The notes under the pieces: model-generated
What the model saw: the letters and a program-made list of their open reading frames with translations, nothing else
Told to the model about the DNA's origin: nothing
The model's database searches: none
Made by a program: the position numbers and the translations under genes
Shown here: one piece after another, positions 11,466-50,002 of the stretch
How the letters are laid out: each line of letters begins with the position of its first letter
Position numbering within the stretch: the stretch's first letter is position 1
NCBI RefSeq assembly: GCF_038051985.1
Contig: NZ_CP150291.1
Location: 2,852,001-2,916,000, forward strand
Reading direction: 5' to 3'
From: Solibacillus sp. FSL H8-0523
Lineage (GTDB): Bacteria > Bacillota > Bacilli > Bacillales_A > Planococcaceae
DNA: 64,000 nucleotides

Positions 11466-12272
11466 CTAGGCAGCTTGAGTAAACTGAGTTCGGTATTCTA
11501 CCGGACTCAGTTTTAATTTTGCCTTGATTCGTTTTGTATTGTAACTCATGTATTTTTCTAGCTCTTCTTTAAACTGTTCGACATTTTCAAATTCCTTCAA
11601 GTAAAGAAATTCTGATTTCATAATGCCAAAGAAGTTTTCCATTACGGAATTATCGTGACAATTCCCTTTACGAGACATACTCTGCACAATTCCTCGTGCT
11701 TGAAGCGTATGACGATACTGTTTCATTTGATAATGCCAACCTTGGTCAGAATGCATCAGGAGCTGGTGTTCCTCTGGCAAGTGTTCTAACGCCCTCTCCA
11801 ACATCTCCGAAACCAAAGTATACGTTGGTCTTGAGCCAATTGTATACGTGATGATTTCGCCATTAAATAAGTCTAATACAGGCGATAAATAAAGCTTTTC
11901 GCCAAACAATTTAAACTCTGTAATGTCTGTTACCCACTTTTCATTTGGCGCTTCAGCTATAAAGTTACGTTCTAAAATGTTTGGCGCAATTTTACCTACT
12001 GTCCCTTTATACGACTTATATTTTTTCATACGCACGATGCATTTTAAACCGAGCGCTTTCATGAGTCGCTGTACTTTCTTATGATTCACTTTTTGCCCAC
12101 GATTCGCTAGCTCATCACGAATACGACGATAGCCATACCGACCTTCGTGTTCGTTATAAATCGCTTGAATTTCTACTTTTAGCTCGGCGTCTGGATCCGG
12201 TCGATTTATCTTCTTCACTAAATCGTAGTACGTGCTACGTGGAATTTCTGCGAATGCCACAAGCGCCTTCAC
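11466..12272 (-). CDS. IS3-family transposase OrfB (DDE integrase core)
   Basis: A 268-residue catalytic half of the transposase. The HTH_21 region YGYRRIRDELANRG precedes the rve core, with the DDE triad in WVTDITEF, MHSDQGWHY and NSVMENFFG. The frame stays open upstream of the GTG at 12272 (reading VKVIYELRHKYSVKALV). OrfB is therefore probably made mainly as an OrfAB fusion by -1 frameshifting near the end of orfA, where a Lys AAG codon in CCAAAGAAG could slip back to AAA (about 12318-12323). Confidence 0.95.
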   Translation of the reverse strand: MKALVAFAEIPRSTYYDLVKKINRPDPDAELKVEIQAIYNEHEGRYGYRRIRDELANRGQKVNHKKVQRLMKALGLKCIVRMKKYKSYKGTVGKIAPNILERNFIAEAPNEKWVTDITEFKLFGEKLYLSPVLDLFNGEIITYTIGSRPTYTLVSEMLERALEHLPEEHQLLMHSDQGWHYQMKQYRHTLQARGIVQSMSRKGNCHDNSVMENFFGIMKSEFLYLKEFENVEQFKEELEKYMSYNTKRIKAKLKLSPVEYRTQFTQAA

Positions 12273-12304
12273 CGAGTATTTATGCCTTAATTCATAGATG
12301 ACCT

Positions 12305-12817
12305 TTACTTTGTCTTCTTTGGTGATGTTTCCTTGGCTTGAACTAAGGCGTTCAACTTTTTTAAATACTCGTTTTCCATACGTAGACGGTCGATTTCAGC
12401 TTGAAGCGCTTCTGGTGAGCCTTCTACTGGTGCTTGTTTTGGTTGTTTCTTTGTTTCTTTTTTCATGGATGGACGCCCCTTTTTCTTTGATTGAAGGGCA
12501 TCGAATCCTTTTGTTTCAAACTGTTTTCGCCATTGACGTATGGTTGATGGTGCAGCTATGCCGAAGATAGCCGCTGTTTCAAGTGAGGACGTACCGTTTT
12601 CAATCATGAAGTTTAGTACGTCTAGTTTAAACTGTGCTGAATAATTTGTATATTGTTTTATAAATGCATTTATGCCTTGAAGCTCGTACTGTTTCACCCA
12701 TTTTGGAAGCGCGTTATGATCTACTCCTATTGATCGAGTGATTTCACAATAACTTTCTTTCCCTTCCAAATAGCGTAAAGCTGCCTGTAATTTTTCTTCT
12801 GCGGTAAATTTCGCCAT
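12305..12817 (-). CDS. IS3-family transposase OrfA (helix-turn-helix)
   Basis: About 170 residues with two helix-turn-helix repeats (KLQAALRYLEGKESYCEITR and SSLETAAIFGIAAPSTIRQW) and a C-terminal leucine-zipper-like segment (LQAEIDRLRMENEYLKKLNAL). It binds the IS ends and dimerises with OrfB. The start ATG at 12817 follows GGAGGTG by about nine bases. Confidence 0.93.
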   Translation of the reverse strand: MAKFTAEEKLQAALRYLEGKESYCEITRSIGVDHNALPKWVKQYELQGINAFIKQYTNYSAQFKLDVLNFMIENGTSSLETAAIFGIAAPSTIRQWRKQFETKGFDALQSKKKGRPSMKKETKKQPKQAPVEGSPEALQAEIDRLRMENEYLKKLNALVQAKETSPKKTK

Positions 12818-12845
12818 ATAAAAACTGCACCTCCAATTGTTAGAT

Positions 12846-12871
12846 GTGTCTAACAATTGGGGTGCAGTTCA
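12846..12871 (-). repeat. Right terminal inverted repeat of the IS
   Basis: Its reverse complement begins TGAACTGCAC and ends GTTAGACAC, matching the left end. The orfA ribosome binding site lies just inside it. Confidence 0.8.
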
Positions 12872-37132: not shown

Positions 37133-37455
37133 TCGTTCATCACCACCAAGAATACGGTTTTATTAAAGTTATCCCATCCTACACGCGATTCATTGCCCGA
37201 TTCATCGATTGGTACAATTGTTGGCGCTGGATAACGTTCATCGTAAATTTCGCTAAATAATGGCTCGCCATATGTGATTTTCTCATTAGCCACCAATGTT
37301 TCACCATCTTTTGATAAACTCGCGGTAAAAAAATCACTAACCTCGTTATATTCAAACGATATTTCAAACAACTCAACCCCTAGCTCAATCTCAAAAGAGT
37401 AAGGAATGAGCTCTCTCTCGACGTTAATATATTCCTTTTCAATCAATCCGCTCAC
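37129..37455 (-). CDS. Baseplate plug-like protein (Pam3 gp18-type)
   Basis: 108 residues, beta-rich, with YSFEIELGVELFEISFEYNEVSDFFTASL and the central YGEPLF..IYDERYPAPTIVPID segment found in small phage baseplate plug proteins. It lies between the LysM-domain protein and the hub gene. Confidence 0.75.
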   Translation of the reverse strand: MSGLIEKEYINVERELIPYSFEIELGVELFEISFEYNEVSDFFTASLSKDGETLVANEKITYGEPLFSEIYDERYPAPTIVPIDESGNESRVGWDNFNKTVFLVVMND

Positions 37456-38054
37456 CTCACTCTCAATTTGACACCAATAGGGATTTTACGTGGATCGTAT
37501 TTATTCAATTTTTGTAATGAAGAAATCGTTACACCGTATTTTTTGGCAATAGTCGAATATGTATCACCTTTTTTTACGATGTGTGTAGCTGCTGCATTTT
37601 TAACAGCTTTATTGTTTTCTGTTTGTTTTCGTCCAGCTTGTGCAACTGGTGCTGTTGTAGCCTTTGTTTTTGGTGCTACATACGATGATTGTCCAACCCT
37701 TACCTCCGTTAATGTAAGGCTAAACTTATAGCCATTCATTACCTTACTCGATGCTTTTATAGACAACCCACTAGCCATCATATTCTTATAAATACGGCGA
37801 CCTTCATACGTGAGCAATTTACCCGTTTTCTCCATACTTTCAATGGCTTTTACCAATGTTTCTAAACGGTCATATGTTGGTCGTATTAATAAGCCTGACA
37901 ATTTAACAACAATCGGTTTACGCTCTACATGGTCAGATAGATCAATGCCTTTCTCCACCTTGTGAGTGGGAATATCCACGTCAATATCAGCATCTTCATT
38001 TTCAACGTGGATTAAATATCCTCCAAGTTTTGATGTACCTACTAGTTCTGCCAT
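37452..38054 (-). CDS. LysM-domain tail protein (XkdP-like)
   Basis: 200 residues. The N-terminal part (HVERKPIVVKLSGLLIRPTYDRLETLVKAIESM) is a tail scaffold domain. The C-terminal LysM (HIVKKGDTYSTIAKKYGVTISSLQKLN, about 153-180) binds peptidoglycan. It follows the tape measure gene as XkdP does in PBSX. Confidence 0.9.
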   Translation of the reverse strand: MAELVGTSKLGGYLIHVENEDADIDVDIPTHKVEKGIDLSDHVERKPIVVKLSGLLIRPTYDRLETLVKAIESMEKTGKLLTYEGRRIYKNMMASGLSIKASSKVMNGYKFSLTLTEVRVGQSSYVAPKTKATTAPVAQAGRKQTENNKAVKNAAATHIVKKGDTYSTIAKKYGVTISSLQKLNKYDPRKIPIGVKLRVR

Positions 38055-38056
38055 GT

Positions 38057-40219
38057 TTATCCCTCCCTCACTTGTGGCATGATTGTTCCTAGGTCTGCAA
38101 AGAAATCTTCTAATGCTTCACGGATGCTCTGCCCTGTTTCGGCGTTTGTATTGCCGCCTTGTACAATAATGTTAACTGGCGCTTGTACAGACGTTGATGC
38201 ATTATTTGTCATTTTTGTTGTCTGATAGGTGCCCTCTGCGTCGCTTAAATTATCCATATTGATGTTTGGATAACGTCCGTCACCATCAATTACACCTGTG
38301 TCACGCAACATTTGTGCGTCCTCTGCTGGTATGATTGCTTCGTCTTTATGGATTTCAGCGACCATGTCATTAGGTACACGACCAATCCCCGAACTAAAGC
38401 CAGGTACCTTACTTGCAACCCAGTCAACTGCACCACTGATACTGAAATTCGATACAGTACTTTTAAAGTTATTCCACTTACTCATCAAGCTATCAAATAA
38501 ACTTAATACCGGGCTTAGTGCCCCTGTAATATCTGATTTAATTTCAGTAAACTTTTCACCAAGCCCATCTTTTAATTGCCCAGCCTTTAAAATTACAGTG
38601 TCCCAGTTCTTATAAAGAAGGACACCAATCGCAATCGCGGCGCCAATCGCGGCTGCAATTAAAAAGATTGGTGATGTAGCAAAAGCAACAGCTGCACCAA
38701 ACGCTCCAGTAACTGTCGTCATACCTGCCGTAACCGCTGTATAAATCGGTCCTGTACCTGCGGCAAATAATAGCATGGCATTATACGCACTGACTGCTCC
38801 GGTAATTAGATAATAGGTGGCCGCTCCGCCAGCCACACCAGCAATCATAAAGCCGTACGTGTCGACGAACTCATGAATTGCACTTGTTCCGTTTAAAATG
38901 CTATTGCCGAATTCAAAAATGCTGGCAGTTCCTGCAAGTATGTGCGGTATTAATTCTTCCGCCTTTGTAGCTATTTCATCAAAAAATTCTTGAGCTGCTG
39001 GATTGTCGACAACACCAGTAATACCGATTTGTAGCTCACGCCATGCGCCGAGCATACGGTTTTTAAATGTTCCTTCAACTGCATCTGCCGCTGCCGCTGT
39101 AGCTCCTTCAAATCCTTTCATTGCCTCTGTAGTCTCAAACATTGAGTACATTACATCTTTGGTGTTATCTTCCCAAGTTGTACCCCAGAGCGCAATCCCA
39201 ACCTCGTTAGCGAGCGTCTGGTCATCCATAGCTTTTAATTCGTTAATGACGGTTGTGCTTAAATCTTTTGAAGTAACTTTACCGGCTAGCATGTCTTTCC
39301 AAAGGTTTTGTGTATCTTTCGATAAATCTTTCATCGCGGCGGCTGTTCCTTTTGAGCCGTCGGTTGACCTTAGACCAAATTCAAGTATTGCGTTATTTAC
39401 GCGGTCCATATTGTAGACACCATTTTGAGCGCCCCTCGACATCACACCGAAAAGCTCTTCAGCACTATAACCAGCTTGAGCCGCTACAGCCGAGAATTCA
39501 CCCATTTGGTCAAACATGTCGTCGGACATATTAATGCCGTTTTGACCGCCTTTAGTAAACAGGTCAAACGCTTTATCCGAACTAATACCAAAGGCGTCCA
39601 TAAGTCCTTGCGCCCCACGCGTAACCTCGTTAATTTCACTATCAAACACATTAGCTAACAACATCGCGTTTGCTGTAGCGTCGGAAAGATCTTCATCTTC
39701 TAAGTCATGCATATTTTGTTTTACGCGCGATATGGCGTCTGTAACTTCTTGCATGCTCTCTCCGTAACCACGTGCGAATGTTTCGTTGGCACTACTTTTC
39801 AATACCTCTAGTTGCTCAACGCTAGCGCCTGTCTGTGCCTCCAAACGTCCAAATGCGCCGTCAGCATCCATAGCAAATGCCCCGAAAGATATTGCTAGAC
39901 CACCTATTGCAGCACCTACTGCTAATACGCCCACTTTCAATGCACTCATCGCTTTTGTTGCTATACCAGTTTCCGTTGATACTGCGCTTATGCTACCGTC
40001 ATCGATGCCCGATAACGAACGATCAAACTCGCTTACAGCACCGTCCATCAATTCGAAATCACCTGTTAGCGCACGTGCCTCTCGTTCCATATCATCAAAG
40101 ACACCAATATCGAGTGAACGCATCATGTCGGCTATCTCATCAATCTCACGGTTCAAATCAGCAAAGGGGCTCTCGTCAATGTCGACGCCGATTTCAACAC
40201 CTAAATCACGTATTGCCAT
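38057..40219 (-). CDS. Tail tape measure protein
   Basis: 720 residues; TP901/lambda-type tape measure core (ETFARGYGESMQEVTDAISRVKQ, MGEFSAVAAQAGYSAEELFGVMS), two hydrophobic stretches (GVLAVGAAIGGLAISFGAFA; FAAGTGPIYTAVTAGMTTVTGAFGAAVAFATSPIFLIAAAI region) and a C-terminal NDMVAEIHKDEAIIPA. It sets tail length. Its first bases overlap the end of the frameshifted tail-chaperone extension (40206-40219). Confidence 0.95.
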   Translation of the reverse strand: MAIRDLGVEIGVDIDESPFADLNREIDEIADMMRSLDIGVFDDMEREARALTGDFELMDGAVSEFDRSLSGIDDGSISAVSTETGIATKAMSALKVGVLAVGAAIGGLAISFGAFAMDADGAFGRLEAQTGASVEQLEVLKSSANETFARGYGESMQEVTDAISRVKQNMHDLEDEDLSDATANAMLLANVFDSEINEVTRGAQGLMDAFGISSDKAFDLFTKGGQNGINMSDDMFDQMGEFSAVAAQAGYSAEELFGVMSRGAQNGVYNMDRVNNAILEFGLRSTDGSKGTAAAMKDLSKDTQNLWKDMLAGKVTSKDLSTTVINELKAMDDQTLANEVGIALWGTTWEDNTKDVMYSMFETTEAMKGFEGATAAAADAVEGTFKNRMLGAWRELQIGITGVVDNPAAQEFFDEIATKAEELIPHILAGTASIFEFGNSILNGTSAIHEFVDTYGFMIAGVAGGAATYYLITGAVSAYNAMLLFAAGTGPIYTAVTAGMTTVTGAFGAAVAFATSPIFLIAAAIGAAIAIGVLLYKNWDTVILKAGQLKDGLGEKFTEIKSDITGALSPVLSLFDSLMSKWNNFKSTVSNFSISGAVDWVASKVPGFSSGIGRVPNDMVAEIHKDEAIIPAEDAQMLRDTGVIDGDGRYPNINMDNLSDAEGTYQTTKMTNNASTSVQAPVNIIVQGGNTNAETGQSIREALEDFFADLGTIMPQVREG

Positions 40220-41202: not shown

Positions 41203-42204
41203 TTAAACGACCATTTCGCCATTAACAGTAGCTTCATGGATTGCTCCAGCTAGTTCAAGGCTAAATGATAATCCTTTGTAGTGTCGGTCCACACGATCCG
41301 TTGCGTTTGTTTGTGCGCGATTTTTTGCAGTAATCGTATATAAAGGCTGTCCAGCTTCATTTAACGCAATGATGCCTTGCTGTCCGGCGATTTCAAGAAT
41401 CGTTCGCGCCTCTCCTTCGATTCGAGGAATACCCACATCGTCGAATGAAATTTTGTCGTTATTAACAAATAACTGAGCGATTGCATTTTCCATGTTCACT
41501 TTCACCCAATCCTTACCGTGAATAACGTCAATATATTCACCTGATAGCATCGTTCCCTCGGATGTTTGATATTGATTTCCTTTCGATACATAAGCAAAGC
41601 CTTTTAACTCGTGAATAGCTAATAAAGTTGTCGCATCATATGGCGCTGGATCTACACCGATTAATTTTTTGAATTTGTACGTAATCGAACCAACTGTTTT
41701 CGAGCCATGACCACCAACTAATGCAATGTGTGGGTATTGCTCTAATTTGTCGTGCATCATGGCAAAAGTGCGGTCATAACGCTTAGCATTCAGTACACCT
41801 AAATCTTCTAAATTGTCGACAACGTGCAAAGCGGCTTTAAATCCTTCACCCTCGACGACATCAGATACCGCAATCATATCGTCGACTGTACCAGTAGCTA
41901 ACGATACAAAATACCAATCTTTATCGAAATGCTGTTCCAGCACTTGTTTCACGGTTACGTCTGTTCCGTCATAAGTAGCGATAGCCACTTTGCTAGTGCT
42001 CGTATCGCCTTGTTTTAAGGCAACATACGCTGCTTTATACGCATCCGTATCTTCAGGGAAATCTGCTTTTACACCGTCTGTATCGCCATAAACTTTAAAA
42101 GTAGATGGTCCTGTTTTTTGCGCTAAAATTAACGGTGTACCTAACCCCTCAAGTGAAGCTGGTTTTTTAATATTTATAATGACGTTCACATCTTTTAACG
42201 GCAT
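41203..42204 (-). CDS. Contractile tail sheath protein (DUF3383)
   Basis: 333 residues. MPLKDVNVIINIKKPASLEG at the start, HIALVGGHGSKTVGSITYKFKKLIGVDP in the middle and an insertion-and-handle C-terminus (YTITAKNRAQTNATDRVDRHYKG) identify the DUF3383 sheath family. Its presence makes this a myovirus-type prophage. Confidence 0.93.
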   Translation of the reverse strand: MPLKDVNVIINIKKPASLEGLGTPLILAQKTGPSTFKVYGDTDGVKADFPEDTDAYKAAYVALKQGDTSTSKVAIATYDGTDVTVKQVLEQHFDKDWYFVSLATGTVDDMIAVSDVVEGEGFKAALHVVDNLEDLGVLNAKRYDRTFAMMHDKLEQYPHIALVGGHGSKTVGSITYKFKKLIGVDPAPYDATTLLAIHELKGFAYVSKGNQYQTSEGTMLSGEYIDVIHGKDWVKVNMENAIAQLFVNNDKISFDDVGIPRIEGEARTILEIAGQQGIIALNEAGQPLYTITAKNRAQTNATDRVDRHYKGLSFSLELAGAIHEATVNGEMVV

Positions 42205-44198: not shown

Positions 44199-45161
44199 TC
44201 ATCCACCTGTAACAACTGCTGGTGTAATCGCTGCAAACGCATCTTCAGACAACGTCGTGAACGCTACCTCTTGCGTCACACGTAATGCAAACATATCACG
44301 CTCGAAAAGGTTAATTGGATTGCCGTCCGCATCTTTGATTGTCGTTAATGTCGCATCTGTCGAAATCGAGTACTCCATTCCAGCAGGCATACCGTAGCGC
44401 GTCATATCCCAATTACCAGCAATTAAAAGAGCTTTAGCGTAATCCCATGATTTCGAATCAGCATAGCCGATTGGCAAGCCTAATGCTGTAGACGTTGCAC
44501 CAGCTGTCGCATCCGTGAAAATAGGCTGTTTATTTTCATCCTTCGCACCACGTAATTTCTGTTTGAATTTACGCGTAGTTGTAAAGCCATCTGGATCTTT
44601 GTCTGCATCTTCGATAAATGCCATTACACCATTTAACTCGTCGTATAAGTTACCTAACGAATTTAACGCAACCGTATTACCTGCTGCTTGAATACGTTCG
44701 AATACAGAAGTACCAGCTTCAAATGGCGAACCAACACCGAATAAGCCGGCTTGGTCAAATTTAATAGCAAAAGCTTCTGCAATTGCTGGTTTCATTTGAT
44801 TAAAGAAGTCTTTTACTGTGTATTTTAAGAACTCTTTTGAAACTGGAATAATTACACCAAGCTTGTAGGCTTTAAGTGTAGCTGTTAACCATTCAGCTTT
44901 ATCCGTTTGAATGCGCTCACCTTCACCTACCCAGTAAGCCCCTGGTCCTGACGCTAAGTACGTGAATTTTTTCTCTTGCTTGTTCATTTGCTCGTACTTC
45001 GCTAAACGAGTAAGCACCGACTGCTGCAAGAACTGCTTCACAACAAGCGTCCCTTCTTCTTTTGGTACTGCACCTGTCACTGCGTCTTGTAATAACACGT
45101 TAGCTGGGTCAAAATCAAATTGACCAATGTTTACCGATAAATATTTTTTTGCTGTTTTCAT
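44199..45161 (-). CDS. Major capsid protein (HK97-like)
   Basis: 320 residues with the HK97-like order: an N-terminal arm, VVKQFLQQSVLTRLAKYEQM, YWVGEGERIQTDKAEWLTATLKAYKLGVIIPVSKEFL, and the C-terminal ERDMFALRVTQEVAFTTLS (E-loop and A-domain parts). Its first residues, MKTAKKYLSVNIGQFD, match the start of the scaffold gene, which suggests a shared processing or docking peptide. A terminator follows. Confidence 0.93.
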   Translation of the reverse strand: MKTAKKYLSVNIGQFDFDPANVLLQDAVTGAVPKEEGTLVVKQFLQQSVLTRLAKYEQMNKQEKKFTYLASGPGAYWVGEGERIQTDKAEWLTATLKAYKLGVIIPVSKEFLKYTVKDFFNQMKPAIAEAFAIKFDQAGLFGVGSPFEAGTSVFERIQAAGNTVALNSLGNLYDELNGVMAFIEDADKDPDGFTTTRKFKQKLRGAKDENKQPIFTDATAGATSTALGLPIGYADSKSWDYAKALLIAGNWDMTRYGMPAGMEYSISTDATLTTIKDADGNPINLFERDMFALRVTQEVAFTTLSEDAFAAITPAVVTGG

Positions 45162-45188
45162 AAGTTTGTAGCCTCCAATTAGTTAATG

Positions 45189-45815
45189 TTATTTTCGTAA
45201 AGATACTTCACCAGCAATAGCACTAATGTCGATGCCGCCTGTGTCGCCGCCTTGTTGGTGGTCAATATCACGCCCGGCACCTTTAAATTTCGCGTCAACC
45301 GCTGCTTGAATCGCTTTTGTGTGAGCTTCCTCATACTTAGTTAAATTCGCTGTTGTCGCTTCTTCATCAGCCCCAATAAGGAAGTCGATTACCTCTGTCG
45401 GCAACCCCTTTTCCTGTGCTAATTTAAGCGCCTTTGTCGATAATTCCGAACGCGCACGCTCTGTACGTTCTTTTTCGATTTCTTGACGTAGCTTTTCGAC
45501 TTCGATTTCAGCCGGTGATTTGTCGGGATTGCGCTTTTTCAGCTCGTCCTCAACCAATGCGTCAAGGTTGTTCGTTTTCCATGTATCAAGGCCCTTTGTA
45601 AAGTTGCTATCCAGTAATGGTTGTAGCACCTTTTTGCCATCTGATGTAGCGAGATACGTTTTAACCGCCTCGCCTGTCACTACGTCCGTTTTGTAATACG
45701 CTTGCACCTCAGCATTGTCCTTATTCGCCTCTAAAAAGGCTTTCACTTGGTCAAATGTAAGTGCATCATCAAACTGACCGACATTGATTGTTAAACGTTT
45801 TTTGAATGTTTTCAT
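45189..45815 (-). CDS. Capsid scaffolding protein (DUF4355-like)
   Basis: 208 residues. A variable N-terminus is followed by a Glu/Lys-rich coiled coil (EIEVEKLRQEIEKERTERARSEL) and the tail AQEKGLPTEVIDFLIGADEE, typical of phage scaffolds. It begins MKTFKKRLTINVGQFDD, close to the start of the capsid protein (MKTAKKYLSVNIGQFDF). It would be removed or cut as heads mature; a Prp-like protease gene lies 29 bases upstream. Confidence 0.9.
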   Translation of the reverse strand: MKTFKKRLTINVGQFDDALTFDQVKAFLEANKDNAEVQAYYKTDVVTGEAVKTYLATSDGKKVLQPLLDSNFTKGLDTWKTNNLDALVEDELKKRNPDKSPAEIEVEKLRQEIEKERTERARSELSTKALKLAQEKGLPTEVIDFLIGADEEATTANLTKYEEAHTKAIQAAVDAKFKGAGRDIDHQQGGDTGGIDISAIAGEVSLRK

Positions 45816-45843
45816 ATTGTCCTCCTAGCCGAATAGTTCAGGC

Positions 45844-46026
45844 CTACTCGTCTTTAATGTGTACGGATAAATCATTTGGGAACTGCTCTTCAAGCTCCTG
45901 TAAATATCTCACCGACGACTGCAAAAGCGTGGAGATGACGGCGCAAATTTTGCTGTCCGTATGTCCCTCTGCCTCAATTTTTAAATAGCCGTCTGGATTG
46001 GTTGTGACTGTAATTTTTGTTGCCAT
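45844..46026 (-). CDS. Prp-like cysteine protease (ribosomal-processing protease family)
   Basis: 60 residues from ATG 46026, which follows AAAGG by eight bases. ITVTTNPDGYLKIEAEGHTDSKICAVISTLLQS resembles Prp/YsxB, with the catalytic pair His22 (GH) and Cys28 (CA). The loop between them is about six residues shorter than in S. aureus Prp (His22, Cys34), and the C-terminal part is short. Prp trims ribosomal protein L27 and, in phage 80alpha, the scaffold and capsid. The gene stands immediately before scaffold and capsid genes. The family call is from motif reading only. Confidence 0.7.
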   Translation of the reverse strand: MATKITVTTNPDGYLKIEAEGHTDSKICAVISTLLQSSVRYLQELEEQFPNDLSVHIKDE

Positions 46027-46132
46027 GCTATCAACCTTTCGCGCCCTCACTGTACGAGCCAACAAGTGCAAGGAAATGAGCTCCATTAGCTTTTATAGTC
46101 TGTTTGAGCTTTCGACTAGATAAGTGGATCAC

Positions 46133-46504: not shown

Positions 46505-47422
46505 CTATCCCTCCAATGTTCTTTGAAAATCTTCAAACGTCTGACGCGCTAAATCATCATTCGTCTGTCCCTCTATGCGCTCAATCTCATACACCAGCAA
46601 GCACCTACAATTAATATCATGATGTGCGTGTCCTATATTACCTGGTGCAATACCTCGTTCACCTCTACCAAGGTCAAACAAGTCATCGACCGGCACTGTC
46701 ACGCCATCCATCTTCTGATGATTGGCTTTACTAGTCTTACGGACACGGCTGTCCTTCATGTTGCGCCATTTCTTCACCATGACGACACCACGCTTATTAG
46801 CATGTTGAGCACTGTCTAACATCGCCTGTTCACGTACACGATGCGTTTCAGTACGTGCTACACGAATTGACTTGCTATAATCACCCTCAAAAGTTTCAGT
46901 AAGGGAAACGGCCATATCCTTGTAAGTCGTACCCTTGACTAAATTTTGCGTTACCGTTTGATTGATCCGATAGATAATGTCACGGCGGTTTTTTTCAAGT
47001 GTCTGCTTAAGCGTTAAGCCTGTGATTGGATTCTCGACTGCCAGTCTGATTTGGTCCATCTTAAGAGCGGTGTATTGTAGCCTTTTACGAGATGACGACT
47101 GTATCGCCCACCCCATCCACGCATATGAATACACATAGCTATTGCTCAAAAGCTCCGAAATGCTTTTCTGAGTCGTTTTAGACATCGAGTTAACGTGTAG
47201 CTCTAATGACTGCATAAAACTCTTGTAGCGGTCATACTTCATCATCTCGGCGTACGTTAACTGTCCGTCCTTCTCGTACTTTTCGTAGAGCGTAGCAACC
47301 TCACCTAGTACTGTTCGCACCAACTTACGATAAAAGAGGCGGATAGAGTTTTCAACGATGTTCAGCTGCTTGTCTTGCCATTTGGCTAGTTGCTTACTGT
47401 ACTTCTCCAGATCCATCATCAT
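46505..47422 (-). CDS. Minor head protein, phage Mu F / SPP1 gp7-like
   Basis: About 305 residues. The C-terminal SPP1_gp7/MuF domain is visible as RVARTETHRVREQAMLDSAQ, KKWRNMKDSRVRKTSKANHQKMDG and GNIGHAHHDINCRCLLVYE. It is packaged in the head near the portal. The frame opens at 47440, but MMMDLEKY (47422), preceded by GAGGACGG, is the more likely start. It overlaps the portal gene end. Confidence 0.93.
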   Translation of the reverse strand: MMMDLEKYSKQLAKWQDKQLNIVENSIRLFYRKLVRTVLGEVATLYEKYEKDGQLTYAEMMKYDRYKSFMQSLELHVNSMSKTTQKSISELLSNSYVYSYAWMGWAIQSSSRKRLQYTALKMDQIRLAVENPITGLTLKQTLEKNRRDIIYRINQTVTQNLVKGTTYKDMAVSLTETFEGDYSKSIRVARTETHRVREQAMLDSAQHANKRGVVMVKKWRNMKDSRVRKTSKANHQKMDGVTVPVDDLFDLGRGERGIAPGNIGHAHHDINCRCLLVYEIERIEGQTNDDLARQTFEDFQRTLEG

Positions 47423-48803
47423 CACCGTCCTCGTCATCATCGGCCATCATCGGCTTAATCGCATCAAGCTCTAGCTGACGTTGTTCCATTTCGTACTCAG
47501 CATCATCGATGTTCGGTAATGTGCTCAGTGCGGTCTTGTGTGACGCAATCGCCATCATCGCAACTGCTGTTTCTACACGTTCCTTCATATTCACTGGGAT
47601 ATTGCGCTTGAACTCGAACCAAATTTTTAAGTAGTCCTCGTCTGCGCAAAGACCTTTCTTCGCCCAGGCGCTGCATAGAACCTTAAATTGATAACGTAAC
47701 GCGGCTGTCATCTTACGTTCCATCGTAATGCACTTGTTTTCGAGTGACATCAGCTTAAATTCAAGCGCAACACCCGTCACATTACCACCAAAAGCCTCAT
47801 CACTGAAATTAACGGACTTAGCTAGGCGCATGATGTTTTGCTCTAAGCGATCTAAATGATGCTCAATCAAACTGTCGTTAATGTCCTTAGTGAGATAGCG
47901 CACATCGTCATTTTCACCAAGCAATTCAAAGATTCCTGACTTTTTAATGCGGTCAATATCCTCGTCGTCTGCACCGAGTCCTTTAAGAATTAAATAAGCT
48001 AGACGGTACTGCTCAATTTCATTGCTGGCATCGGATAACGTGCGGTTATACGCGTCAATCAATGTAAATACGCGCTCAGCATCAGCCATAAGCTCCTCAT
48101 TATTGGGCAATCCAAACAACGGGCAATGCTCGAACGTGTGCAACTGCGGCTTATCAATCAACTGCAATCCATTTGCACCCGACTCAAAGACATAATAAAA
48201 AGCGTCATCGTAAAATTCGACCCGCTGCTTGTTTTCATCAATATTAAAATAGCGGATAGCGAACTCTGGCTCCGTGTAATCGGTACTGGAAATGATGATG
48301 GTTTCCCATGGATCAATGTTAATGATTCGTTCCTTACCTTCCTTGTCGATGTATGCCAAGCGTGCGCCGTAGCCACAAATAGCGGCTTTCTTGCCCCATT
48401 CGCTGTCCTTGTCCTCGACGTTATTACGTAGCTTGAATATATCAATCTCGGCTTTTAGCCCAGTTAATTTATCTAATACGTTTTTATCAACTTCATAACT
48501 AATTGGATGGCCAAACATATAACCAACCTTTGTATCGACAATTTCCACGTCAAAGCTGTTATTCAAGCGATTGTTAACCTTATCGTCAATTCGCTTAACG
48601 GCACCCGTTTCAAAGTCTTCATACTTAGCAGCTTCACGTGTCAAAATCGGCACCGCATCGGTTTCAGCGCGGTAACGTTTATACATGAGTAAACGACGCG
48701 CTTTGTCCTTCTGGTGCTCGTCAATGACCTGTGCAATTAATGTAGCGTCTGCTCCTTTATCGCGGAACTGACGGACGTATTTTTGTGTGTTCAATTGGTT
48801 CAC
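47394..48803 (-). CDS. Portal protein (SPP1 gp6-like)
   Basis: 469 residues. KARRLLMYKRYRAETDAVPIL, NNRLNNSFDVEIVDTKVGYMFGHPISYEV, NVTGVALEFKLMSLENKC and an acidic tail (DDDEDGDDDG) identify the phage portal family of SPP1 gp6. The dodecamer at the head vertex is the packaging channel. ATG overlaps the TerL stop by four bases. Confidence 0.95.
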   Translation of the reverse strand: MNQLNTQKYVRQFRDKGADATLIAQVIDEHQKDKARRLLMYKRYRAETDAVPILTREAAKYEDFETGAVKRIDDKVNNRLNNSFDVEIVDTKVGYMFGHPISYEVDKNVLDKLTGLKAEIDIFKLRNNVEDKDSEWGKKAAICGYGARLAYIDKEGKERIINIDPWETIIISSTDYTEPEFAIRYFNIDENKQRVEFYDDAFYYVFESGANGLQLIDKPQLHTFEHCPLFGLPNNEELMADAERVFTLIDAYNRTLSDASNEIEQYRLAYLILKGLGADDEDIDRIKKSGIFELLGENDDVRYLTKDINDSLIEHHLDRLEQNIMRLAKSVNFSDEAFGGNVTGVALEFKLMSLENKCITMERKMTAALRYQFKVLCSAWAKKGLCADEDYLKIWFEFKRNIPVNMKERVETAVAMMAIASHKTALSTLPNIDDAEYEMEQRQLELDAIKPMMADDDEDGDDDGSGEVQ

Positions 48804-50002
48804 CTCTTACCTGTCATAATTTCTTTGTAATAATGCGTGTAAATGGCATAACGTAATGCGTCGAGCACATCGTCCCATAGCTTTACCGGCTCACCATTAT
48901 CACCCCATACATACATATAAATCTCGTCGTCGAAACGTTTCACCTTATCGCGCACAATGTACAAGCGCTCTGTTTTAAAGTGACGCGCTACCGACTCAAT
49001 ACCTGGCACGACATTCTTTTTACCGTTAATCGCTCGCAACTTCTCGCGACGAAAACGTTCGGTGTGTTCTGGGCGCGCCGTATCACAATAAAAATTAATG
49101 TTGCCGTAGCGTGCTTTAACGTCCTTAGCAATTTTTACCCAATCATCAATTTCTTTATGTCGATGAGCGTGCTCCTCACATACAAAGACGTCACCTTTAT
49201 CGTCCTCAGCTAATACTACAATCGAACCGTAGTGGTCATAGCCCCAGTCAACACCGGCAAAATGTTTTACAATGTTTTTCTTTGCGAACTCTTCGGACGA
49301 AATGTAATGAACATCTTTATTGAAGTCACGATAAATAACACCCTCGGCTGCAACCCACAAGCCGTGTATATCACGGTCTGTAAACATGCCTGACGGTGTA
49401 CTGGCTACAATCGATTCAACATATTCTGGATCTAACTTATCATTATCGAAAAGTGTGAAATTAAATGCACGGATATTTAAACGGCCGCTTTTTAGCATTT
49501 GCCCATCTTTATCGATGTAATCCTTTTTTACGCTATGAGCTGGATTTTCGGGATTGGTATCAATTAGCACCCTCGCACCTTGATATGAACAACGAGAAAT
49601 AACCTCTTTGACGAATGTGTCGTGTAAGGCTGTCCCCTCGTTCATCAACGCGCCTGCTGCTGTAAATCCACGTGCTTTCTTCCAACTGTCCGATTGCGCT
49701 CCGTCAAAGCAGTACACTTTGTTGCCGAAAATCGTAACAGCATTGGATTTATTAAGCTTAAGCTCCTTACCTAATATCGCTTCCATATCATCTAAGATGT
49801 TACGACGTATACTCGCTTGTGTAGCGCCGCCGATAATGAATGAAAGCCCTTGCCCCTCGTACTTAGCGATGTGCATTAAAAAAAGCAGAATAAACACGAA
49901 TGTTTTCCCTGCACGCTTGGCGCCACTAGCTACTACGATTTTCGGTTTTTCTTTGATAAACGAATCCATGACCTCTAATTGCTTTTTCGTTAGTTCGGTC
50001 AT
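48800..50002 (-). CDS. terL: Terminase large subunit
   Basis: 400 residues. The N-terminal ATPase has Walker A GAKRAGKT (27-34) and a later NEGTALHD/DTNPENPAH region. The C-terminal nuclease has GVDWGYDHYGSIVVL and NINFYCDTARPEH with its acidic residues. It packages DNA into the procapsid with the small subunit. It belongs with XtmB/Terminase_3-type enzymes of pac phages by its look. Confidence 0.95.
   Translation of the reverse strand: MTELTKKQLEVMDSFIKEKPKIVVASGAKRAGKTFVFILLFLMHIAKYEGQGLSFIIGGATQASIRRNILDDMEAILGKELKLNKSNAVTIFGNKVYCFDGAQSDSWKKARGFTAAGALMNEGTALHDTFVKEVISRCSYQGARVLIDTNPENPAHSVKKDYIDKDGQMLKSGRLNIRAFNFTLFDNDKLDPEYVESIVASTPSGMFTDRDIHGLWVAAEGVIYRDFNKDVHYISSEEFAKKNIVKHFAGVDWGYDHYGSIVVLAEDDKGDVFVCEEHAHRHKEIDDWVKIAKDVKARYGNINFYCDTARPEHTERFRREKLRAINGKKNVVPGIESVARHFKTERLYIVRDKVKRFDDEIYMYVWGDNGEPVKLWDDVLDALRYAIYTHYYKEIMTGKR

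Follow-up and report, generated by a model that had tools for sequence, protein, structure and literature searches.

The window, a 64,000-nucleotide stretch of the genome of Solibacillus sp. FSL H8-0523 (contig NZ_CP150291.1, positions 2,852,001 to 2,916,000), carries a prophage with a head operon on the minus strand. The operon encodes, in order, a terminase large subunit, a portal protein, a Mu F-like minor head protein, two small ORFs, a 60-aa Prp homologue (mini-Prp), a scaffold and the major capsid protein (MCP). Scaffold and MCP matched Pfam DUF4355 (E 9.5e-28) and Phage_capsid (E 3.3e-31), respectively. An alternative in-frame start of the mini-Prp gene at 46086 would lengthen the protein to 80 aa; the part homologous to relatives starts near position 46026. 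Coordinates are listed in Table 1, where arrows, as throughout the text, mark cut sites. An earlier note on this DNA had pointed to near-identical N-termini of scaffold and MCP and to a GH...CA layout in the small upstream protein; frames and sequences were as stated when rechecked. Tail genes of the prophage encode a Dit-like protein with LysM (37452-38054), a minor tail/tape-measure protein (38057-40219) and a DUF3383 protein (41203-42204), the last of which we take to suggest a contractile tail. Insertion-sequence transposase genes (rve integrase core, HTH_Tnp_1) lie at 11466-12856, in the chromosomal part to the left of the prophage.

Table 1. Features of the head operon and of the predicted protease and its signals
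Feature	Coordinates	Strand	Remark
Terminase large subunit	48800..50002	-	head operon context
Portal protein	47394..48803	-	SPP1 gp6-like; head operon context
Minor head protein	46505..47440	-	phage Mu F-like; upstream gene of head operon
Mini-Prp	45844..46026	-	60-aa Prp-family cysteine protease homologue; 5-residue His-Cys loop
His22 codon	45961..45963	-	predicted catalytic His; invariant in 47/47 aligned mini-Prps
Cys28 codon	45943..45945	-	predicted nucleophile; invariant in 47/47 aligned mini-Prps
Scaffold	45189..45815	-	DUF4355; predicted substrate; MKTFKKRLTINVGQFD
Private signal in scaffold	45771..45794	-	L8-TINVGQ-F15; predicted cut F15↓D16
Major capsid protein (MCP)	44199..45161	-	HK97 family; predicted substrate; MKTAKKYLSVNIGQFD
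Private signal in MCP	45117..45140	-	L8-SVNIGQ-F15; predicted cut F15↓D16

The host genome, a single 4.14-Mb contig, has a Prp gene of its own adjoining rpmA; the mini-Prp gene sits in the phage head operon and not beside rpmA. Host Prp has 11 residues between His and Cys. The start of host L27, which had been singled out for inspection, reads MLLLTLDLQFF↓ASKK, an ordinary LDLQFF↓A signal.

Mini-Prp alone matched Pfam Prp (PF04327) with E 1.6e-4 and 22.3 bits, under the gathering score of 27. Its best PDB sequence match was Thermotoga TM1457 (1s12; E 5.7e-5), and a PHROG match was weak (E 0.034). Relatives were gathered from viral contigs and genomes, and a profile was built on 47 chosen sequences, all with a Pfam Prp match of E 1 or lower. 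Searched against the PDB, this profile returned the five solved Prp sequences as its top five matches, with E 2e-8 for SaPrp (4peo/7kld); the next match had E 0.46. Some of these five entries are labelled hypothetical in the PDB, their Prp names being given in PMC9405229. The active site of mini-Prp reads G21-H22-(5 residues)-C28-A29. G21, H22, C28 and S32 (Ser at C+4) were invariant in all 47 aligned mini-Prps; the equivalents in SaPrp (G21, H22, C34 and S38) are required for activity according to PMC9405229. The earlier note had read the protein as a Prp with a shortened loop between His22 and Cys28. Both the family assignment and the short loop held (5 residues vs. 11 in the host's own Prp); however, more than the loop is changed, the protein being about half-sized and predicted to form a beta-beta-helix.

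The profile aligned to SaPrp residues 1-57 and, weakly, again to 82-103. This two-part alignment suggests a Prp from which the middle, from the end of helix 1 to the start of helix 2, has been removed, one long helix joining the ends. AlphaFold modelling with a 13-row alignment gave pLDDT 85.5 and pTM 0.58; with the 47-row alignment it gave pLDDT 93.5 and pTM 0.69, the beta-beta-helix only, and a C-terminal segment unassigned as strand. A comparison with Prp folds, also proposed in the earlier note, succeeded by sequence profile but not by structure: Foldseek found no significant fold match for either model, SaPrp ranking 2nd, 6th and 11th (E 1.2-2.1; TM 0.46-0.58 by query length), and the model is very small for a fold search. 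The Prp family claim therefore rests on the sequence profile and the active-site residues. The 11-residue L2 loop of SaPrp with Gly29 and Asp31 is absent from mini-Prp, which has 5 residues and no Gly/Asp pair, and the essential Asp31 has no conserved counterpart. Purifying selection was evident between relatives (dN/dS 0.039 at dS 0.64; 0.051 at dS 1.2). Pairs involving the window gene gave 0.21 (dS 1.9) and 0.068 (dS 3.0), both at high dS, and the other 8 of 10 were saturated. A search of the 'phages' collection gave no significant match to short-loop mini-Prp (4 records, all E 1 or worse). Judged by profile and active-site residues, the protein is a miniature member of the Prp family, departing from it in size, fold completeness and loop. 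We know of no active Prp-family member of 60-aa size.

Scaffold and MCP of the window share an N-terminal extension LxφNφGQF↓D, in which the cut is predicted from an ungapped alignment with the known cut sites of L27 and 80alpha gp46/gp47 (PMC9405229). Compared with the L27/80alpha signals, LTINVGQF↓DD and LSVNIGQF↓DF keep P8 Leu, a hydrophobic P6, P5 Asn, a hydrophobic P4 and P1 Phe, and have Gly for Gln at P3, Gln for Phe/His at P2 and Asp for Ala at P1'. The two proteins belong to different families (DUF4355 and Phage_capsid), so protein homology does not explain the shared N-terminus. A search of the N-terminal 70 residues of window ORFs (60 aa or longer) with [LIVFMA][NDK][LIVM].[QM][FH] matched scaffold and MCP only. 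A narrower degenerate DNA pattern (1 mismatch), too narrow for the scaffold, had a single match in the whole host genome, the window MCP. Chance similarity of the two N-termini was rejected on the window pattern search and on the recurrence of the signal among relatives. According to PMC9405229, the L2 loop of SaPrp bonds P3 Gln through Gly29 and Asp31, Phe42 is where P1-P2 stack, and P4/P6 lie at the dimer interface. The P3 contact abandoned by the window signal corresponds to a contact with the part of the loop that mini-Prp lacks.

Co-variation of gene and signal was analysed in the MCP family of the window. The family was contained in 215 of 223 sequences, which formed 116 distinct groups; 7 truncated duplicates were dropped, leaving 109. 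The private signal was defined as φNφxQF, a definition set after the first data were seen. It was present on both MCP and scaffold at 16/16 loci with a short-loop Prp (window included), although one of these MCPs, L011, reads RMF (NIRMF) and breaks the P2 pattern; 14 short-loop MCPs remained after clustering at 95%. MCPs without a short-loop gene had the private signal in 0/93 cases, and at least 1.3 kb upstream of the MCP was present at all 93 loci. A host-type signal (P3 Gln) was found in 19 of the 93, L197 (NIQMFA) and L219 (NLQMFA) being counted as host-type, and the other 74 had no recognisable signal. Long-loop phage Prp loci had P3 Gln in 7/7 MCPs; MCPs without a detected phage Prp comprised 12 with host-type signals and the 74 signal-free ones. 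Most of these 74 have M(P/S/A)(T)F(D/N)P as their very start; L173 has ~11 additional residues with no motif, a few are added in L214 and L215, MVML is the start in five, and the parse of L213 was poor. P3 in the 16 short-loop MCPs was Lys in 9, Gly in 2, Arg in 2, and Ser, His and Gln in 1 each, with P1 Phe kept in all; P3 in their scaffolds was Lys in 13, and Gly, Ser and Asn in 1 each. Scaffold counts were restricted to these 16 loci, scaffold ORF picking being imperfect elsewhere (e.g. L208, L209, L212, L200).

In a tree built from the last 285 residues of 72 MCPs, the short-loop gene and the private signal each required 8 changes, and the supported independent pairs agreed in 6/6 cases (sign test p 0.031). 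With the 31 extended MCPs only, 5/5 pairs agreed (p 0.0625); the raw gene-signal table for these 31 rows gave a Fisher value of 3.8e-9 with relatedness ignored. The pair-test p-values are modest because the independent events are few. Sister pairs illustrate the pattern: L043 has NIHQFD with a short-loop gene and L021 has NLQHFA without one; L032 has NIGQFE with the gene and L197 has NIQMFA without it. Going by these sequence comparisons, the gene-signal association in the MCP family is not merely one of common descent.

The distance from the predicted cut to the Phe/Tyr anchor was 0-4 residues, with one -1 (15/16 short-loop MCPs measurable). Among 65 extension-free MCPs, the initiator Met lay 1-4 residues from the anchor in 62; two had a distance of 7 residues and one a distance of 12. 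Short-loop rows of the YTP-anchor subclade gave 4, as did extension-free L045 (MVVQTYTP). The predicted cut thus lies near the start of extension-free MCPs, and the extension is close to what trimming would remove.

The association recurred in a second capsid family. On one contig (L091/L223), the short-loop gene accompanies another capsid and scaffold family, and NIKQF is present on both proteins (MPLNIKQF↓AE and LPINIKQF↓DD, cuts predicted). Eight relatives of L223 with MCPs 79-91% identical had no short-loop gene within the sequence stretches covered; host-type signals (e.g. PLNLQFFA) were present on 8/8 of their scaffolds and 4/8 of their MCPs, and the other 4 MCPs had no extension. A private signal, as the earlier note had proposed, accordingly goes with the short-loop gene in each of two capsid families (16/16 vs. 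0/93, and L223).

We compared loop length with the P3 residue across Prps. P3 Gln occurred in 1/34 distinct signals paired with 5-residue loops (the exception being the L040 MCP, LNLQQF), in 0/75 distinct signals of actinophage-type mini-Prps with 9-10-residue loops, and in 26/26 signals, from 15 loci, of mini-Prps with an 11-residue loop. Host Prp/L27 pairs with 11-residue loops had P3 Gln in 26/26 parsed cases (4/30 unparsed), the pairs being the 30 best-scoring of 100 genomes with a match, a sample that favours typical Prps. Full-size Prps in five named phages had P3 Gln in 10/10 signals; Kromp, with a 9-residue loop, had P3 Thr and Asp. The search pattern for the 11-residue class partly demanded P3 Gln (it alone caught the L287 signal and one of those of L283), a small bias; that for the 9-10-residue class required Arg or Lys at P2 and His or Phe at P1, with P3 left free. 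FRLDRH↓D-like signals were found on both sides of the protease at 31/45 loci of the 9-10-residue class, and none were found at 2. These comparisons point to an association of the P3 residue with loop length, not with mini size alone. Each loop class probably represents one or few lineages, with few independent origins, and the signal counts overstate the association. Pairing of P2 with the Cys+8 residue (Phe42 in SaPrp) was considered as a second specificity rule and rejected; Gln at Cys+8 is common in host Prps whose L27 has P2 Leu.

Mini-Prps with 9-residue loops were seen in actinophage-type contigs L289-L348 (type judged by likeness to Kromp) and in Streptomyces phage Kromp (L232, 3501-3689), and an FxLxRH↓D signal is common to scaffold and capsid in those contigs. 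A Prp search of a Corynebacterium glutamicum genome gave no match; actinophage hosts of this kind may therefore have no Prp to borrow. Prophages L208-L212 and L269-L288, whose hosts are probably Paenibacillus-like, have mini-Prps with an ordinary 11-residue loop and FDLQRF↓N signals (P1' Asn). In L025, a phage with a full-size Prp, the MCP signal around 5998 (MCP start) is FNLQRH↓A with a predicted P1 His.

We consider it likely, with a probability of about 0.8, that the prophage encodes a private lock-and-key consisting of mini-Prp, with a His22/Cys28 dyad, and a matching signal on scaffold and MCP. The mini-Prp gene lies just upstream of its two presumed substrates, both of which carry an N-terminal extension ending L-x-φ-N-φ-G-Q-F. 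Mini-Prp would bind this extension as host Prp binds LNLQFF↓A, through hydrophobic P8, P6 and P4, Asn at P5 and Phe at P1. A cut after Phe15 would leave a mature MCP starting DFDPANV, nearly where extension-free relatives start, (M)PTFDPNNV. The L2 loop, with which ordinary Prps grip P3 Gln, has 5 residues in mini-Prp in place of 11. Correspondingly, the signal lacks P3 Gln, having Gly in the window signals and mostly Lys in relatives, and carries Gln at P2. The resulting pair would be separate from host L27/Prp, a module that related phages gain, lose or exchange; the benefit may be independence from host Prp, or avoiding competition with L27 processing, which is essential. The sequence comparisons show the genes, their family, the signals, the co-variation of gene and signal, the loop-P3 association and purifying selection; we infer from them that mini-Prp is catalytic, where it cuts, that it is orthogonal to host Prp, and what the phage gains. 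We also lean, with somewhat less confidence, toward a broader reading: phages would repeatedly run private capsid trimming with a 60-residue Prp in at least three matched pairs, and L2-loop length would set P3 specificity, orthogonal to host L27 processing. The three pairs in question would be a 5-residue loop with φNφxQF↓D, an 11-residue loop with FDLQRF↓N and, in actinophages, a 9-residue loop with FRLDRH↓D.

Mini-Prp might instead no longer cut, and act as a peptide-binding chaperone, coordinating scaffold and capsid assembly through recognition of their common N-terminal tag. Its half size and the loss of the equivalent of essential SaPrp Asp31 would fit this role, as would the 80alpha scaffold N-terminus, which is essential while its cleavage is dispensable (PMC5744158). 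Against a chaperone speak the invariance of His22, Cys28, Gly21 and Ser32 in 47/47 aligned mini-Prps, a predicted cut where extension-free homologues start, and a P1 Phe kept in the 16 short-loop MCPs, and we regard it as unlikely.

Exchange of the head cassette as one block, with no enzyme-signal specificity, would also make gene and signal co-occur. The protease gene ends 0.68-0.99 kb before the MCP start at the 16 short-loop loci, and such linkage would by itself give some association. This explanation appears quite improbable, however, given that supported independent pairs agreed in 6/6 cases, that a whole scaffold gene separates the MCP signal from the protease, that the same pairing occurs with different scaffold and capsid families and analogous pairs elsewhere, and that loop length goes with P3. 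Least probable in our judgement is processing of the NIGQF signal by host Prp, the phage protein having another role such as inhibiting or modifying host Prp. The host does have a normal Prp, and 80alpha uses the host enzyme (PMC5744158); but the signal lacks the P3 Gln that all 26 parsed host L27s have, and it was seen in 0/93 MCPs without a short-loop gene.

The role of Prp cleavage in 80alpha is obscure, since cleavage is dispensable (PMC5744158). Because closely related capsids come with no extension, a host-type extension or a predicted self-cut extension, what the extension is for can be tested. With the loop-P3 association, a single contact known from crystals becomes a candidate rule of specificity for the Prp family, which is considered an antibiotic target. 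To our knowledge, a 60-residue Prp would be among the smallest free-standing proteases, and with its short signal it would be a useful minimal enzyme.

Among the closest known systems is host Prp (YsxB, MEROPS C108) acting on L27 and on 80alpha; laboratory E. coli is without a Prp (PMC9405229). Host Prp cleaves both SP and CP of 80alpha, which needs the SP N-terminus but can dispense with the cleavage of either protein (PMC5744158). The two systems share the GH..C dyad, Ser at C+4, a signal with hydrophobic-Asn-hydrophobic and P1 Phe, the same two phage substrate types, and the same signal on scaffold and capsid. Host Prp has ~110 aa and an 11-residue loop, whereas mini-Prp is phage-encoded with 60 aa and a 5-residue loop; 80alpha relies on a protease supplied by the host, and the window prophage carries its own gene. 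The signals differ as well, LNLQ[FH]F↓A in host and 80alpha vs. INVGQF↓D and VNIGQF↓D in the window, with P3 Gln replaced, Gln at P2, and P1' Asp instead of Ala. Thermotoga TM1457 (1s12), described as a short-loop Prp in PMC9405229, resembles mini-Prp in its loop; it is, however, a 94-aa host protein from a bacterium without a long L27.

In the portion of the literature that was searched, which lacked key subscription papers, neither a half-sized Prp nor a matched private signal nor a loop-P3 association was described. Six of 35 named phage records were examined (phiFL3A, Lj965, PLgT-1, Krappator149, Fontainebleau and Kromp), and in several the Prp-family gene is annotated 'peptidase' or 'protease'. 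As in the window prophage, the head operons of the first five contain a Prp-family gene, and scaffold and capsid have a signal in common, but their Prps are full-size, with 11-residue (one 14-residue) loops, P3 Gln in every signal, and P1' Ala kept in 4/5. Mini-Prps of the Paenibacillus-like prophages and of the actinophages (Kromp) share the half-sized architecture near scaffold and capsid and a shared signal; they differ in loop and signal, 11 residues with FDLQRF↓N in the former class and 9 residues with FRLDRH↓D in the latter. Streptococcus phage Cp-1 likewise has a phage-encoded Prp-family protease, a precedent absent from the earlier note. The Cp-1 protease is reported to cut 48 residues off the start of the major head protein (PMC12445089); PMC9405229 puts the number at about 40. 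Cp-1 orf13, which is 104 aa and has the Prp-like motif GHGDDTDQSC, would be this capsid protease (clan CR / C108). Cp-1 differs from the window prophage in the length of this protein and in its podovirus capsid, and inspection by eye of its head and scaffold proteins revealed no shared LxNxxF-type signal. Phage-encoded Prp-family capsid proteases are thus already known from Cp-1, and mini-Prp with its private signal is a variant of them.
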